Assembly (NCBI GenBank): GCA_947490345.1
Contig: CANLGL010000023.1
Span: 1 to 64,000, forward strand
Length of the DNA: 64,000 nt
Direction: 5' to 3'
Source of the DNA: Deltaproteobacteria bacterium
GTDB lineage: Bacteria; Myxococcota_A; UBA796; SXON01
Shown: one piece after another, positions 11,259 through 17,339 of the stretch
Numbering within the stretch: position 1 is the stretch's first letter
Layout: each line of letters opens with the position of its first letter
The notes under the pieces: generated by a model
Databases searched by the model: none
Told to the model about the DNA's origin: nothing
The model's input: only the letters and a program-made list of their open reading frames with translations
Translations under genes and position numbers: made by a program

Positions 11259-13499
11259 ATGTCCCTCGACGCACTCTACGCCGCCATGCCCCACCGCCAC
11301 GCCATCGGCCGCCGCCGCCTCGGGCGTGGGCTGACCCTGGCCGAGAAGGTGCTCTTCTCGCATCTTGCCACCCCGGAGATCGCGCCGTTCCATCGCGGTC
11401 GGAGTTTTCTGGACCTGCACCCCGACCGCGTCGCGATGCAGGACGCTACGGCGCAGATGGCGCTCTTGCAGTTCATGCTGGCTGGCAAGGACACAACCGC
11501 CGTCCCCACCACGGTTCATTGCGACCACCTGATCCGAGCCCGACGCGGGGCCACCGACGACATGGCCGTCGCCACCACCGAGAACGCCGAGGTGTACGAG
11601 TTCCTCCGCAGCGCGAGCCAGCGGTACGGCATCGGCTTCTGGAAGCCGGGCGGCGGCATCATCCACCAGGTGGTGCTCGAAAACTACGCGGCGCCGGGGA
11701 CCCTGCTCATCGGCACCGACAGCCACACACCGAACGCCGGTGGTCTCGGGATGCTCGCCGTCGGCGTCGGTGGTGCGGACGCCGTCGACGCCATGGTCGG
11801 CTTGCCCTGGGAAGTGCTCTGCCCCACCATCATCGGCGTCAGACTTACCGGGGCGCTGTCCGGTTGGACCTCGGCCAAGGACGTGATCCTGAAACTGGCG
11901 GGACTCTTGACCGTCAAGGGCGGCACCAACGCGATCATCGAATACTTCGGGCCGGGCTGCGAGAACCTCTCCGCGACCGGGAAGGCGACCATCTGCAACA
12001 TGGGCGCGGAGCTCGGTGCCACCTGCTCGATCTTCCCCTACGACTGGCGCATGGGCGACTATCTCCGCGCGACCGCACGAGCCTCGCTCGCGACGAAGTG
12101 CGACGGGATCCGGGGCGCCCTCGTCGCCGATCCCGAGGTCGAGGCCAGTCCGGCGGCGTACTTCGATCGCGTGGTTGAGATCGACCTGACGACGTTGGAG
12201 CCGCATCTGGTCGGACCGCACACGCCCGACCTGGCGAGGCCGCTCTCGGCGATCAAGGAGGCGATCGTGACGGAAGGCTACCCCCGCCAGCTCAAGGTCG
12301 CGCTCCTGGGTAGCTGCACCAACTCCTCCTACGAGGACATCGAGCGCGCCGCGCACATCGCGCGGCAGGCCTCCGCCAAGGGATTCCGCGCCCGGGTGCC
12401 TTTTCTGGTCACTCCCGGGAGCGACCAGATTCATGCAACAATCACTCGCGATGGACAGCTCCGCGACCTCGAAGCCATCGGTGCAGTCGTGCTCGCGAAT
12501 GCGTGCGGACCGTGCATCGGGCAGTGGAAACGCGACGACATCAAGCCTGGCGAGCGCAACAGCATCGTGACCAGCTTCAACCGAAACTTCCCGGCCCGGA
12601 ACGACGGTAACCTCGAGACGCTCGCCTTCATCGGCAGCCCCGAGACGGTCGTCGCCATGGCGCTGTCGGGTGACCTCGGCTTCGACCCGGCGCGCGACAG
12701 CCTCGAGCAGGACGGGGTGACGTTGACCCTGGAGCCACCTCGCGGTGAGGAGCTGCCCCCCGCGGGTTTCGTGCCCGACTTCGTGAGCTTCATCAAGCCG
12801 GATCCCGCCAACCGCGGCACAGAGGTGGTGATTCGGCAGGGCAGCGATCGTCTGGAACGGCTGAGCCCCTTTCCGGCCTGGGACGGGCAGGACCTCTCGG
12901 GACTGGTCGTGCTCCTCAAGGCGAAGGGCAAGTGCACGACCGACCACATCTCTGCCGCAGGACCGTGGCTGAAGTACCGTGGGCACCTGACCAACATCTG
13001 CGGCAACCTCTTTTCGACCGTCCACAACGCGTTCACGGGGGTGATCGGCCGCGGTCGCGACGTGCTCGCCGACGAAGCCGCCGTGGCCTTCCCCGACCTC
13101 GCCAAGCGGTACCGGGCGGCCGGACAAGGCTGGGTTGCCATCGGCGACGACAACTACGGCGAAGGCTCCAGCCGGGAGCACGCCGCGATGGAGCCCCGGC
13201 TGATGGGCTGCCGCGCGGTGATCGCCAGGAGCTTCGCGCGCATCCACGAAACCAACCTCAAGAAGCAGGGCGTGCTCCCCCTCACCTTCGCCGCGCCGAC
13301 CGACTACGAAAAAGTCAGGGAAGACGACCGGATTGGACTGGAGGGTGTCGCGGGACTGCGCGGCGGCAAGGCGCCGACCCTCGTTCTGCACCACGCCGAC
13401 GGCACCGTCGACCGCATCCCCACCCGAGCCTCACACACGCCTGAGCAGTTCGGGTGGTTTGTGGCGGGGAGCGCGCTCAACGTGATTGCGGGTGGCTGA
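11259..13499 (+). CDS. acn: Aconitate hydratase, mitochondrial-type
   Basis: This TCA-cycle enzyme (citrate to isocitrate via cis-aconitate) is 746 residues long, matching mature mitochondrial-type aconitase rather than the roughly 900-residue AcnA or AcnB. The three [4Fe-4S] ligands are visible: Cys353 in GSCTNSSYEDIERAA, and Cys416 and Cys419 in NACGPCIGQW. Other family hallmarks are IGTDSHTPNAGGLGMLAVGVGG, KGKCTTDHISAAGPW and IGDDNYGEGSSREHAAMEPR. ATG at 11259 has an AAGG just upstream. The stop codon lies inside the start region of the following ATPase gene, so a downstream defence or repair-like module may be co-expressed with this core metabolic gene. Confidence 0.95.
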   Translation: MSLDALYAAMPHRHAIGRRRLGRGLTLAEKVLFSHLATPEIAPFHRGRSFLDLHPDRVAMQDATAQMALLQFMLAGKDTTAVPTTVHCDHLIRARRGATDDMAVATTENAEVYEFLRSASQRYGIGFWKPGGGIIHQVVLENYAAPGTLLIGTDSHTPNAGGLGMLAVGVGGADAVDAMVGLPWEVLCPTIIGVRLTGALSGWTSAKDVILKLAGLLTVKGGTNAIIEYFGPGCENLSATGKATICNMGAELGATCSIFPYDWRMGDYLRATARASLATKCDGIRGALVADPEVEASPAAYFDRVVEIDLTTLEPHLVGPHTPDLARPLSAIKEAIVTEGYPRQLKVALLGSCTNSSYEDIERAAHIARQASAKGFRARVPFLVTPGSDQIHATITRDGQLRDLEAIGAVVLANACGPCIGQWKRDDIKPGERNSIVTSFNRNFPARNDGNLETLAFIGSPETVVAMALSGDLGFDPARDSLEQDGVTLTLEPPRGEELPPAGFVPDFVSFIKPDPANRGTEVVIRQGSDRLERLSPFPAWDGQDLSGLVVLLKAKGKCTTDHISAAGPWLKYRGHLTNICGNLFSTVHNAFTGVIGRGRDVLADEAAVAFPDLAKRYRAAGQGWVAIGDDNYGEGSSREHAAMEPRLMGCRAVIARSFARIHETNLKKQGVLPLTFAAPTDYEKVREDDRIGLEGVAGLRGGKAPTLVLHHADGTVDRIPTRASHTPEQFGWFVAGSALNVIAGG

Positions 13500-15852
13500 T
13501 TCCCCGCTCTTCTGGAGCGTCTACGATCGGCTGGTGGAGGCCAGCGCTCCGCCGGCGCTCGCCAACCTCGTCGAGGCGGCCTTCCAAGGCGACGCCGCCG
13601 TCCTTTCAGCGCTGACAGGCTCCGACGGCGCCACGCGAGCAGCACGCCCGCTGGTCCGGCCACGCCCTCGCCCCTGCTACCTCACGCGGGTGGAGGTGAC
13701 CTCCTTTCGAGGGGTCGGACCCAAGGCCACCCTCGATCTGGCGCCGGGTCCCGGCCTGACGCTGGTCACCGGGCGCAACGGCACCGGTAAGTCGAGCTTC
13801 GCCGAAGGGCTCGAGGTGCTCCTGACCGGCAGCGCCAGGCGCCTGGACGGCAAGGCGAAGGATTGGAAGGAGGGGTGGCGGTGCCTGCACGCGGTAGACG
13901 CCCCCCAGGTGCGCGCGACCTTCACCGTGGAGGAACAGGCGCCAACGACCATCGTGCGCCGTTGGGCAGCCGGCGCCGAGCTCGCCGACAGCACGGTCGA
14001 GGGGCTCGCGCCGTTGGGCTGGTCCGACGCGATCCAGACGCACCGCCCGTTTCTGGCCTACGCCGAGCTGGGAAACCTGCTCGAAGCGGGACCGACACGG
14101 GCGTACGACTCGCTCAAGCCAATCCTCGGCTTGGAAGAACTCAGCGCGGCCGTCCAGCGGCTGTCGGACGCGCGGCTGGCACGGGAAAAGGCGATGAAGG
14201 AGGCGAAAGCGGCCCTCCAGCCGATTCTCGCCCGTCTGGGGGCCTCCGCCGACCCGCGCGCGGCCGTGTGCACGACGGCCCTGGGAAAGAAGTGGAACCT
14301 CGACGCCATCGAGCCCACCTTGACCGGGGAAGCAGACAACCCGGTTCCGGAGGCCCTGCGTCGCCTCGTCAATGTACGCGCCCCGACGCTGGACCCGGAG
14401 CCGCTTCGCCGCGCGGTTGGCGATCTCGCCGCGATCGCTGCCGGGGACTCGGCGAGGCAACTTTCCGCGGCGGAGCTGCTGCTCAGAGCCTTGCGGTGGC
14501 ATGACGCGTCTCGCGACGCCGCCTGTCTCTGCCCGGTGTGCCACATCGGCACCCTCGACGCGGCGTGGCACAAAGCCGCCACGGCCGAGGCGGCGGAGCT
14601 GGAGAAGGGCGCCCGAGCCGCACAGGACGCGACGGCGCTGCTGAAGCGTGCCCACGAGGCCCTACGCCCGCCCGCACCCCCGCTCGACCTGAACCACCCG
14701 CTCGCCGCGGACGCGCTCGCGGCCTGGACGGCCCTCCATCGGGCGCCGGAGGACGCCCTCGCGCTCGTCGCCCACGTCGAGGCGCACGCGCCCACGGTGG
14801 CCAGCGCTGTCCAAACCATGGTGGCCGAGGCGCAACGTCAAATCGCTGTGCTCGAGGACGCCTGGCGCCCCTTGCGGCTCGAGCTGCTCCTCTGGCTTGG
14901 GAAGGCCAAGGCAGCCATGGCGATGGCCGTTCAGCTCGAAAGGATCGCCGCCGCCGAGACCTGGCTCAAAGACGCAGAGACCGAGCTACAGACGGAACGC
15001 TTCGCACCGATCGCCGAGCGCGCGGCGGCGACGTGGCTGGCGCTGCGCCAGCAGAGCAGCGTGGGCCTCCGCGGCATCAGTCTGCAGGGGGGCGGCACCC
15101 GCCGCCGCTTGGACCTTGCCCTGGAGGTGGATGGCGCCGAAGCCCCGCTCGGGGTGATGAGCCAGGGGGAGGTCAATGCGCTCGCCCTGAGCCTGTTCAT
15201 TCCCCGTCTGGTACACGACGACAGCCCCTTTCACTTCGTCATCATCGACGATCCGGTCCAGTCGATGGACCCGTTCAAGGTGGACGGGCTCGCCCAGGTG
15301 CTCCACGACGCGGCGACGACACGGCAGGTGATCGTCTTCACCCATGACGACCGACTGACGGATGCGGTCCGTCGCATGCAGCTGCCCGCGACCATCCTCG
15401 GCGTGACGCGCCGGGCCCGCTCCGACGTGGATGTGCGCGTCCTGATGGACCCCGCCGATCAGATGCTCTCCGATGCTCGCGCCGTCACCAAGGATGCCGA
15501 GCGCGCCGGGCGGAAGGTGCTCCAGCGCGTGGTTCCTGGACTGTGTCGAACCGCAGTGGAGTTTGTGCTCCAGAGCGCAACGCGACGCACCCTGCTCCGG
15601 AAGGGCGGTCGCAACGAGGAGGTGGAGTCGCGCCTTCGGGAAGCGACCACGCTGCAAGAGATCGCCGCCCTGGCGTTTTTCGACGACCACCAACGCGGCG
15701 CTGACGTCTTCGGGTGGCTCAATCAGCTCGGACCCGACGCGGTCGACCTGTTCAAGGAGCTGAAGCAGGCCACACACTCCGGCGAGGCCGACCAGCGGCT
15801 GGTCGCGAGGACCGAAGCGCTGGTGAAGAGCTTGCGGCAGAAGCTCTCGTGA
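13492..15852 (+). CDS. SMC/Rad50-like AAA ATPase with zinc-hook CxxC and HEPN-like C-terminus
   Basis: This 786-residue protein has the split ABC/SMC ATPase layout: Walker A (TGRNGTGKSSF, about residue 93), coiled or helical arms broken by a CxxC hook (CLCPVCHIG; Cys347 and Cys350), a signature-like MSQGEVNALAL near 555, Walker B (FVIIDDPVQSMD, about 581) and an H-loop (IVFTHDDRL). After the ATPase, the last 150 or so residues are all-helical (GLCRTAVEFVLQ, ELKQATHSGE) and resemble a HEPN/DUF4145-type module with a weak R/K-x-x-x-x-H motif. The likely role is DNA end or nucleic-acid sensing coupled to an effector, as in Rad50, RecF or RloC-like ATPases. GTG at 13492 overlaps the aconitase stop by 8 bp; TTG at 13486 is also possible. 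The next gene overlaps by 4 bp. Confidence 0.85.
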   Translation: MADSPLFWSVYDRLVEASAPPALANLVEAAFQGDAAVLSALTGSDGATRAARPLVRPRPRPCYLTRVEVTSFRGVGPKATLDLAPGPGLTLVTGRNGTGKSSFAEGLEVLLTGSARRLDGKAKDWKEGWRCLHAVDAPQVRATFTVEEQAPTTIVRRWAAGAELADSTVEGLAPLGWSDAIQTHRPFLAYAELGNLLEAGPTRAYDSLKPILGLEELSAAVQRLSDARLAREKAMKEAKAALQPILARLGASADPRAAVCTTALGKKWNLDAIEPTLTGEADNPVPEALRRLVNVRAPTLDPEPLRRAVGDLAAIAAGDSARQLSAAELLLRALRWHDASRDAACLCPVCHIGTLDAAWHKAATAEAAELEKGARAAQDATALLKRAHEALRPPAPPLDLNHPLAADALAAWTALHRAPEDALALVAHVEAHAPTVASAVQTMVAEAQRQIAVLEDAWRPLRLELLLWLGKAKAAMAMAVQLERIAAAETWLKDAETELQTERFAPIAERAAATWLALRQQSSVGLRGISLQGGGTRRRLDLALEVDGAEAPLGVMSQGEVNALALSLFIPRLVHDDSPFHFVIIDDPVQSMDPFKVDGLAQVLHDAATTRQVIVFTHDDRLTDAVRRMQLPATILGVTRRARSDVDVRVLMDPADQMLSDARAVTKDAERAGRKVLQRVVPGLCRTAVEFVLQSATRRTLLRKGGRNEEVESRLREATTLQEIAALAFFDDHQRGADVFGWLNQLGPDAVDLFKELKQATHSGEADQRLVARTEALVKSLRQKLS

Positions 15853-16217
15853 GCGCGACGCCAGCCGAGCTCTTGACCGAGGCCTCGACGCTCCTCGCAG
15901 AGGACGACCCGGCCACGCGCGGCCGGTGGGGGCGAATCGCAACGCACCTGACGCGCCAGGCGCTGGAGACCAGTCTCCGCGCCTACTGGGGCGAGCGCCA
16001 CGCGGGTCTGGCGAGCGCCAACTTCCGCACCCAGTTCATCTGCCTGGCGGAGTATCACCCCGACCGCGCCCTGGTCCGCCGGGTGGCATGGGCCTGGGAG
16101 GCGCTCAGCGACGCGGGGCATGCGCGGGGTGCCCTGCCCGGCCAGGCCGACCTCGAGGATTGGATCAGGACCGTCGCGGCGTTCGGCGCCACCGTGCCCA
16201 CGCGCCCCGCTACTTGA
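15849..16217 (+). CDS. Small helical HEPN-like partner of the SMC-like ATPase
   Basis: This 122-residue, all-helical protein starts at a GTG that shares four bases (GTGA) with the stop of the ATPase gene, so the two are almost certainly translated as a pair. Segments such as THLTRQALETSLRAYW and WAWEALSDAGHARGAL resemble HEPN/DUF4145 proteins, in which an R-x4-6-H motif can form an RNase site. Here the motif position holds SDAGHAR, with His but not a clear preceding Arg-Asn. From memory, similar ATPase plus small helical protein pairs occur in actinobacteria with ...CHHH... at this position; that comparison is unverified. The 3' end overlaps the convergent lipoprotein gene by 8 bp. Possible roles are toxin or antitoxin subunit, or ATPase adaptor. 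Confidence 0.75.
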   Translation: MSATPAELLTEASTLLAEDDPATRGRWGRIATHLTRQALETSLRAYWGERHAGLASANFRTQFICLAEYHPDRALVRRVAWAWEALSDAGHARGALPGQADLEDWIRTVAAFGATVPTRPAT

Positions 16218-16782
16218 CGGGCGCCTTCCCTCGATCCTCGATCGGCCGAAGCGGCGCACATTCCACCGAAAGCTCGAACGGCCCGACCGCGCCCTCCTTC
16301 CCGTCCACGACGATGAGGTACTGGCGTTCGTGGAAAGCCTGCATCATGACCGACCCACCCGGACCGGGGCGCACGTCGCCCTCGCATTCGGTGATCGGGT
16401 GCTTCACCGTCGGGCAGCGGCCGTCGTAGTCCCACGCGACCGCCGCGAGATCGAGGTCCACACACGTGCTCGTCATCCGGACCGTGACCTGGGTGTCCTT
16501 CGGCGCGGTCAGCGTGTAGACCCGCTCGGCGCCTGAGTGGTGCTGGCCGGCCGGGAAGCAGAAGGCGGTCGCGTAGAAGTCGTCATCCCACGCCGAATCT
16601 CCACCGAGCGTCGTCCCCGACAGGCGGCTGCCGCACGCCAAGGCGCCGCTGAGGCACCCCCGGGCCGCGGGGGCCTCGCCTTCGGTGGCGCAGCTTGGCA
16701 GCACGGGGGCCGCCGACGCACCAGGGGCGACCTTTCGCGCAAGATCGCCCATTTCTGCGCAGCCAAGGACCAGAAGAATCAT
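16210..16782 (-). CDS. Putative secreted lipoprotein, hypothetical
   Basis: This 190-residue protein has a very short lipoprotein-like N-terminus (MILLVLGCAEMGDL; lipid Cys8), then a Cys-containing beta-rich domain (DDDFYATAFCFPAGQ, ERVYTLTAPKDTQVTVRM, STCVDLDLAAVAWD). The pattern is like pre-peptidase C-terminal/PPC-type beta-sandwiches that accompany secreted proteins, but this is a weak resemblance and I assign no function. ATG at 16782 overlaps the stop of the acetyltransferase gene (ATGA), placing it third in a rhodanese-GNAT-lipoprotein operon. The frame is open further upstream, but that would bury it in the acetyltransferase gene. Confidence 0.75.
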   Translation of the reverse strand: MILLVLGCAEMGDLARKVAPGASAAPVLPSCATEGEAPAARGCLSGALACGSRLSGTTLGGDSAWDDDFYATAFCFPAGQHHSGAERVYTLTAPKDTQVTVRMTSTCVDLDLAAVAWDYDGRCPTVKHPITECEGDVRPGPGGSVMMQAFHERQYLIVVDGKEGAVGPFELSVECAPLRPIEDRGKAPVK

Positions 16783-17339
16783 GAGGACGCCGCCGCGGCC
16801 GGCAGGCGCTCGTCGCGGAGGAGCCCGAAGAGCAGGCAATCTCCGCCGCTCGCGCCGCGGCGCAGGGTGCCCTCCTGTTGGAAACCGAGCCCCTCGAGCA
16901 TCCGCACGCCCGCTCGATCATCAGCCGCGACACGGGCCTCGACGCGCAGGAGCTCGTCGGAGCTGGAGTAGAGGTGCTCGACCAATGCGGATACCGCTTC
17001 TGTCGCGACTCCGCGGCCCGCGGCCTGCGGATGCAGCACCCAGCCCACCTCGACCTGAGGCGGCGCGACCCAGACCTGCCGCCAGCCGACGCCGCCGATA
17101 AGCCGCCCTTCCAGGGTGACCGCGAGGTCTGCACGGGGCGGACGCCCGTACCGCGACACCGTGTCGGCGATGTAGCGGGCCGCCTCGCTCGGGTCGTCGC
17201 CGCCGAGCCAGCTGCCATATTGCGTGGGCGGCCAGTCCTTGGCGTAGGCGTGCACCGCTTCCAGGTCGTCCACGCGGAACGGGCGGATGATCAGCCGCCG
17301 GGTACGCAGGACGGGCGGCGCCCAGGCATCCGCGTTCAC
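16779..17339 (-). CDS. GNAT family N-acetyltransferase (RimJ/RimL-like)
   Basis: This 186-residue protein has the GNAT fold of the RimJ/RimL type: an N-terminal RTRRLIIRPFRVDDLEAVHA, a central GGVGWRQVWVAPPQVEVGWVL and the acetyl-CoA pyrophosphate loop (PQAAGRGVATEAVSALVEHL), ending with RMLEGLGFQQEGTLRRG. It would transfer acetyl groups from acetyl-CoA to an N-terminus or amine; the substrate is unknown. The start is GTG at 17339, overlapping the rhodanese stop by GTGA, and the stop overlaps the lipoprotein start by ATGA, so all three are coupled. Confidence 0.9.
   Translation of the reverse strand: MNADAWAPPVLRTRRLIIRPFRVDDLEAVHAYAKDWPPTQYGSWLGGDDPSEAARYIADTVSRYGRPPRADLAVTLEGRLIGGVGWRQVWVAPPQVEVGWVLHPQAAGRGVATEAVSALVEHLYSSSDELLRVEARVAADDRAGVRMLEGLGFQQEGTLRRGASGGDCLLFGLLRDERLPAAAASS

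Follow-up and report, generated by a model that had tools for sequence, protein, structure and literature searches.

The window analysed here, a stretch of 64,000 nucleotides from a Deltaproteobacteria bacterium (GenBank assembly GCA_947490345.1, contig CANLGL010000023.1, positions 1 to 64,000), contains a module of two genes that encode a large ATP-binding cassette (ABC) ATPase with a zinc hook and a small partner protein. This pair looks like an apparently undescribed two-part form of the ABC-HEPN kind of defence proteins, and profile comparison identifies the partner as a separately encoded homologue of the C-terminal tail that the ATPase itself carries. The genes and the motifs of the ATPase are as follows (aa, amino acids):

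13492..15852, + strand: zinc-hook ABC ATPase of the Rad50/SMC/RloC-like type, 786 aa, GTG start (from open reading frame, motifs and Pfam)
15849..16217, + strand: small partner, 122 aa, GTG start, stand-alone homologue of the ATPase tail (from open reading frame and profile comparison)
15849..15852, + strand: GTGA overlap of the ATPase and partner genes
13771..13797, + strand: Walker A motif GRNGTGKSS, aa 94-102
14530..14541, + strand: CPVC zinc-hook motif, aa 347-350
15154..15171, + strand: ABC signature VMSQGE, aa 555-560
15235..15270, + strand: Walker B and D-loop FVIIDDPVQSMD, aa 582-593, including IIDDPVQSMD
15343..15345, + strand: H-loop histidine H618 (FTHD)

Both open reading frames and their 4-bp overlap lie where an earlier reading of the letters alone (the sequence-only reading) had placed them, and the Walker A and B motifs, central CxxC hook and H-loop that it had named are all seen in the ATPase. 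With ratios of nonsynonymous to synonymous substitution rates (dN/dS) of 0.161 for the ATPase and 0.169 for the partner against their homologues in the related genome G009 (79.2% and 82.0% identity, respectively; 0.089 for aconitase as a control), the two are real, constrained proteins under purifying selection. The gene overlap takes the form NTGA in 12 of 14 pairs, the window's counted, and is 1 bp long in two Streptomyces pairs; since the start codons in this survey were chosen by the analyst, the kept overlap is consistent with translational coupling of ATPase and partner but no proof of it.

The window's ATPase scores above the Pfam cut-offs for SMC_N, AAA_23 and AAA_21, and AAA_13 (PF13166), the Pfam family that holds RloC, matches all 12 aligned ATPases at E <= 0.5 (best 9.1e-9). 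The PADLOC models LmuB and PDC-S06 match parts of the ATPase ends (LmuB with E 5.1e-17 and its best stretch at aa 552-622, other LmuB models at aa 62-128 or 47-158), NCBIfam gave weak Rad50, RecF and ABC-type matches that all stay under cut-off, and a PDB sequence search returned chiefly Rad50, SMC and RecF. Our ATPase alignment covers 12 of the 15 pairs described below, leaving out G002 (split over two contigs), Streptomyces anthocyanicus (annotated as two coding sequences) and G313 (found later), and both cysteines of the CPVC motif are invariant in it, window copy included. The aligned ATPase of G229 (L050, 2775-5180) is without about 10 residues spanning the SQGE of the ABC signature, which are present in the 11 other homologues.

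The partner as a homologue of the ATPase tail

When the profile of the full ATPase was compared with that of the partner, the sole aligned region was aa 655-783 (probability 21%, E 0.001), and the excised tail scored 36.5 and 35.7 against the partner in two profile-profile runs. Controls for the 35.7 run reached at most 18.3 with 200 column-shuffled partner profiles (mean 10.7, standard deviation 2.0), 10.3 with the reversed partner, and no more than 18.2 with segments of the ATPase that lie entirely ahead of the tail. Judged by these profiles, the partner and the C-terminal tail of the ATPase are homologous, a relationship absent from the sequence-only reading. That reading had matched the module to no named type, and indeed the partner has no significant match in Pfam, PADLOC (PADLOC-DB 2.0.0) or NCBIfam (20.0); a PDB sequence search with it gave chance-level matches alone (best E 0.2), and ABC-3C CTD2 matches 1 of 14 partners, weakly (E 0.041). 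The tail and the residues conserved in both domains lie at:

15427..15849, + strand: C-terminal HEPN-like/anticodon-nuclease-like tail of the ATPase, aa 646-786, homologous to the partner
15547..15561, + strand: Arg686-X3-Glu690 of the tail, invariant in 12/12 aligned tails
15775..15777, + strand: His762 of the tail, invariant in 12/12, with a Glu-His gap of 70-72 residues in the 12
15954..15968, + strand: Arg36-X3-Glu40 of the partner, invariant in 14/14 aligned partners
16119..16121, + strand: His91 of the partner, invariant in 14/14, with a Glu-His gap of 49-57 residues in the 14

Across the 12 tails and 14 partners together, four columns are invariant in all 26 sequences: the R and E of R-x3-E, an L and the H. 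The partner of G313, the one pair of 15 outside the partner alignment, also shows R-x3-E and the histidine. RloC carries the motif Arg-X3-Glu-X36-52-His, equated with Arg320-Glu324-His356 of PrrC, and alanine at Arg692, Glu696 or His737 of the Geobacillus kaustophilus protein ends both its anticodon nuclease activity and its toxicity (PMC2610378, excerpt). The Glu-His gap of the partner falls inside the range of RloC in 12 of 14 cases, and in 12 RloC-like proteins that we collected it spans 37-43 residues, with Asp in place of Glu in one of them. The sequence-only reading had instead pointed to a weak K-x-x-x-x-H in the stretch ELKQATHSGE of the tail; this stretch holds K-x3-H, neither preceding lysine is conserved throughout, and the Arg-X3-Glu...His triads listed above are the conserved elements.

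The HEPN-like nature that the same reading had ascribed to both the tail and the small protein is supported by profiles. DUF4145 (PF13643), a HEPN family represented by 14 of 16 places collected from relatives (two under cut-off were omitted), scores 29.7 over 110 columns against a merged profile of tail and partner, in register at R-x3-E and the histidine, and none of 199 shuffles came as high (maximum 13.7). The C-termini of the 12 RloC/AAA_13-type proteins score 20.9 against the tail (0/200 shuffles as high, maximum 16.0) and 15.4 against the merged profile (0/200, maximum 12.4); an earlier comparison with four RloC-like tails had given similar scores. This RloC-like set consists of 7 of 8 distinct AAA_13 places (L124, a partial match, figures in the earlier comparison only) and five plasmid proteins picked among 40 listed rows of 121 records. 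The relation of tail and partner to HEPN domains thus stands on a moderate profile match.

Strict pairing and presence or absence as a unit

Among 282 genomes from the phylum of the window, 11 gave a match to the ATPase (E <= 1e-20) and the same 11 a match to the partner (E <= 1e-3), in every one of them directly downstream of the ATPase. A search of 377 genomes with the partner profile alone matched 14, of which 12 hold complete pairs; the twelfth, G313, was newly found from the partner, whose gene directly follows that of the ATPase there and overlaps it by ATGA. These counts in the phylum are not all independent, as some genomes are close kin and three belong to the window's genus. A short partner-like fragment in G104 (L148 1600-3240), with no ATPase in the 10 kb examined, lies downstream of an IrrE-type peptidase gene resembling PADLOC RmrA, and a partner match in G288 (E 5.9e-4) was set aside as probably due to chance given its internal stops and lack of BLAST support. 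The idea of a conserved two-gene module, for which a want of co-occurring homologues had been named as fatal, survived this search, since all 12 cases from the phylum have the two genes side by side.

Similar pairs in actinobacteria, which the sequence-only reading had mentioned, do exist. In a plasmid collection, the ATPase matched eight records, five of them over merely a stretch of the protein, and the pair is present in three, adjacent each time: Nocardia farcinica (on a 2.66-Mb record named "plasmid 2") and two Streptomyces plasmids. On the Streptomyces anthocyanicus plasmid (L035 7803-10264), the ATPase is annotated as two overlapping coding sequences, and this copy may be disrupted or mis-sequenced. 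Another Streptomyces plasmid (H29, NC_021056.1, 16059-16148) has a 30-residue partner match where no gene is annotated, perhaps a relic. No relatives of the module were found in phage records, and a single-protein search of viral contigs gave no match; a profile search of these contigs found 21 loci that match part of the ATPase, over at most about 200 residues.

Distances between ATPase cores (without the tail) correlate with those between partners at r = 0.83 across 12 pairs, a value reached in 0 of 5000 permutations and as expected of genes inherited together. In a tree of the 12 ATPases, 2 of 9 inner branches are well supported and 0% of 200 bootstrap trees unite the three f3 genomes; their failure to group fits transfer of the module without proving it.

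These pairing data bear directly on two other explanations. The first, that the ATPase is an ordinary RloC followed by a chance downstream gene, could appeal to the shared domain order, hook and triad, but adjacency in all 12 pairs of the phylum and all three of the actinobacteria contradicts chance, and with an AAA_13 score under the cut-off for the window's ATPase and a different Glu-His spacing we regard it as extremely unlikely. The second sees a toxin-antitoxin-like pair in which the tail would be a toxic RNase and the partner its inhibitor through an inactive heterodimer. Strict pairing and gene overlap would suit such an arrangement, as would a partner that is homologous to the tail and lacks the arginine of Rx4-6H, the second HEPN hallmark (PMC3710099, excerpt), while the large-gene-first order tells little either way. 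However, R, E and H are retained by all 14 partner sequences where a pure inhibitor could lose them, and we hold this second explanation to be improbable.

The site of the module in the window is bounded by two genes that lie outside it:

11259..13499, + strand: aconitase, left flank of the insertion site
16210..16839, - strand: lipoprotein-like open reading frame, right flank of the insertion site (labelled by eye; no Pfam family)

In G007 and G010, both of the window's genus, the lipoprotein-like gene directly follows aconitase, with 13 and 3 bp between the stop codons. ATPase and partner fill exactly this gap in the window and in G009 and overlap both flanking genes (the 5' end of the ATPase gene and the stop region of the aconitase gene have 8 bp in common), and no third gene accompanies them there. 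The pair occurs in 3 of 11 genomes of the genus; G001, G003 and G006 have other sequence after aconitase, and the copy of G002 sits elsewhere, on short contigs with none of the 11 other flanking genes of the window that were searched for. The pair is therefore present or absent as a unit at one site, and gain here and loss elsewhere both fit.

Genes around the pair

Nearness to defence genes, which the sequence-only reading had proposed as a test, was found for 3 of 12 pairs, which lie beside or near type IV restriction genes. The pair of G055 has a GmrSD gene 37 bp upstream, in the same orientation, and a gene for an RNase H/AAA_12 helicase downstream; that of G313 directly follows an Mrr gene of the same strand, with a helicase in front of the latter; and for G140 the 10 kb upstream of the pair include both a GmrSD and an AbiEii gene. 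The 11 first-found carriers hold 8 places above the cut-off for GmrSD_N, 2 of them within 10 kb of the module, though this count is post hoc, GmrSD having been chosen after it was seen.

Among 15 loci compared in all frames of at least 80 aa (BLAST, E 1e-5), hardly any neighbour recurs, the exceptions being the common flanks of the Streptomyces plasmids, the GmrSD that G055 and G140 share, and a further isolated match. Both Streptomyces records have a UvrD-like helicase of about 1185 aa after the pair (by Pfam for one), which was rejected as a core part because it is common to those two records alone. In G092 (L042 6401-7945), a neighbour with five DUF4379 treble-clef stretches and restriction-endonuclease-like matches just under cut-off is possibly a defence gene. 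The partner of Nocardia farcinica (L033 10286-14385) ends some 50 bp before the convergent rpoB2, the record's predicted rifamycin-resistant RNA polymerase subunit.

Part of this setting would also suit housekeeping DNA repair by an SbcC- or RecN-like ATPase with an accessory protein. The ATPase ends match SMC_N, Rad50 and RecF, the Streptomyces ATPases carry an automatic Gene Ontology term for double-strand break repair, the window copy has an overlap with aconitase and ordinary genes around it, and an HhH-GPD base-excision repair gene adjoins the pair in G229 as a TatD DNase gene lies near it in G136. Yet the pair was found in just 11 of the 282 phylum genomes and in 3 of the 11 that make up the genus, its site is empty in G007 and G010, type IV restriction genes lie beside or near it in three genomes, and no Mre11/SbcD-like gene is among the neighbours scanned; a repair role is very improbable in our view.

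A proposed mechanism and its relation to known systems

Considering what is conserved, we find it about evenly balanced whether ATPase and partner form a transferable defence-type module, a two-subunit relative of RloC that stops translation. A more specific proposal, which we put forward tentatively, is a novel two-subunit RNase defence built around a composite HEPN nuclease, one half of which would belong to a Rad50/RloC-like sensor while the duplicated, separately encoded homologue of the sensor's tail provides the rest, the two being joined only upon DNA sensing. The order of parts in the large protein is that of RloC, i.e., one ABC half, the CPVC hook in the middle, the other ABC half and a C-terminal HEPN/nuclease-like domain, and the partner is a stand-alone duplicate of this last domain, presumably made beside the ATPase via translational coupling. 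An ATPase dimer joined at the zinc hook may sense abnormal DNA, broken or invading, and ATP-driven movement of its heads could then let the tail meet the partner to form a HEPN-HEPN pair. This pair would cut RNA, most likely tRNA, so that translation stops and the infection aborts. For DNA sensing, heterodimer formation, RNA cutting and defence alike we infer the function from RloC, whose activity is regulated by its zinc hook (Davidov and Kaufmann, PMC2610378, excerpt).

Several observations weigh against this interpretation. The window's ATPase stays below the AAA_13 cut-off of 36 bits (30.2 bits, and 26.2 in the genome search), and the Glu-His gap of its tail falls outside the 36-52 residues of RloC. 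Taken separately, tail and partner score 19.0 and 20.4 against DUF4145, which tops all 199 shuffles (maximum 17.9 and 17.4) but in matches that are both short and local. The match of the tail to the RloC C-termini covers 16 columns only, around R-x3-E, and that of the partner to the same 12 C-termini is not significant (13.7; 7/200 shuffles as high). Nine of 12 pairs, the window's included, have no restriction family above cut-off among the neighbours scanned, a scan of part of the neighbours in which several contigs were short and G009 was judged by synteny with the window; the ten genes around the window's pair carry ordinary cellular Pfam names or none. Finally, the arginine of Rx4-6H is seen in 4 of 12 tails, with K in its place in another 4, and in none of the 14 partners, and either domain may therefore be non-catalytic.

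The missing arginine in all 14 partners supports a non-catalytic scaffold, modelled on the middle component of Lamassu or on DndE beside its ABC ATPase, in which the HEPN-like tail and partner would bind each other or RNA/DNA and a cleaving or toxic activity would come from elsewhere, e.g., from an adjoining restriction enzyme or helicase. HEPN domains lacking the motif are regarded as binding modules that have no catalytic activity (PMC3710099, excerpt), the combination of an ABC ATPase with a small second protein is known from other defence systems (DndD/CxC-DndE, PMC10853773, excerpt), and the 1185-aa UvrD-like helicase of the Streptomyces records could be such an external effector. However, an Arg-X3-Glu...His that is invariant in 26 of 26 domains goes beyond the need of a pure scaffold, the insertions of the window and G009 hold the module alone, and almost no neighbour protein recurs among the 15 loci, so that we consider a scaffold unlikely. 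RNase activity of the two domains remains likely since the triad is kept in both, with the reservation that Rx4-6H is kept partly in the tail and not in the partner.

Among named systems, RloC is closer than the sequence-only reading had suggested. Like the ATPase described here, RloC is a Rad50-like ABC ATPase interrupted by an insert that bears a CX2C hook, with a DDP Walker B and a C-terminal domain carrying Arg-X3-Glu...His in the same domain order, and with 658-897 aa its size range (PMC2610378, excerpt) includes the 786 aa of our protein. Nonetheless, we have not filed the module as an RloC member because its ATPase is under the AAA_13 cut-off and because RloC is a single-gene system whereas a second gene is adjacent here in every case.

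The likeness to Lamassu/ABC-3C (LmuB with LmuA and LmuC) proposed alongside RloC holds for parts of the ATPase ends only. Both have a short zinc-hook SMC-like ATPase and a small extra protein, but we see no LmuA effector or LmuC (the partner has no PADLOC match and the window's insertion holds just two genes), the ATPase has a HEPN-like tail and precedes the partner, and its Walker B reads DD in contrast to the E-to-Q of LmuB (PMC10586767, excerpt). Compared with DUF4145 proteins, the merged profile shares the 110 columns and conserved residues described above, but DUF4145 is not among the hmmscan matches listed and the module has no GN-x3-H motif. In Dnd and Pbe systems, the ABC ATPase (DndD/CxC-ABC, with a zinc hook in the CxC clade) always comes with a small coevolving protein (PMC10853773, excerpt); DndE is of the ribbon-helix-helix type, and our partner has no Dnd or Pbe match in Pfam, PADLOC or NCBIfam and matches the ATPase tail instead. 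A literature search of partial coverage did not find the pair described, though the family may be covered by Krishnan et al. 2020 in their classification of ABC ATPases.

If the proposed mechanism is true, the RloC/PrrC class of tRNA-cutting defences would extend from one-gene to two-gene systems, and the module would illustrate how duplication of the tail can divide a nuclease that is fused to a DNA-sensing ATPase. It further offers a small two-protein set in which specific residues (K100, R686, E690 and H762 of the ATPase; R36, E40 and H91 of the partner) can serve to separate sensing, pairing and cutting, and a name for a family annotated as "AAA family ATPase" and "hypothetical protein" in two Streptomyces records.

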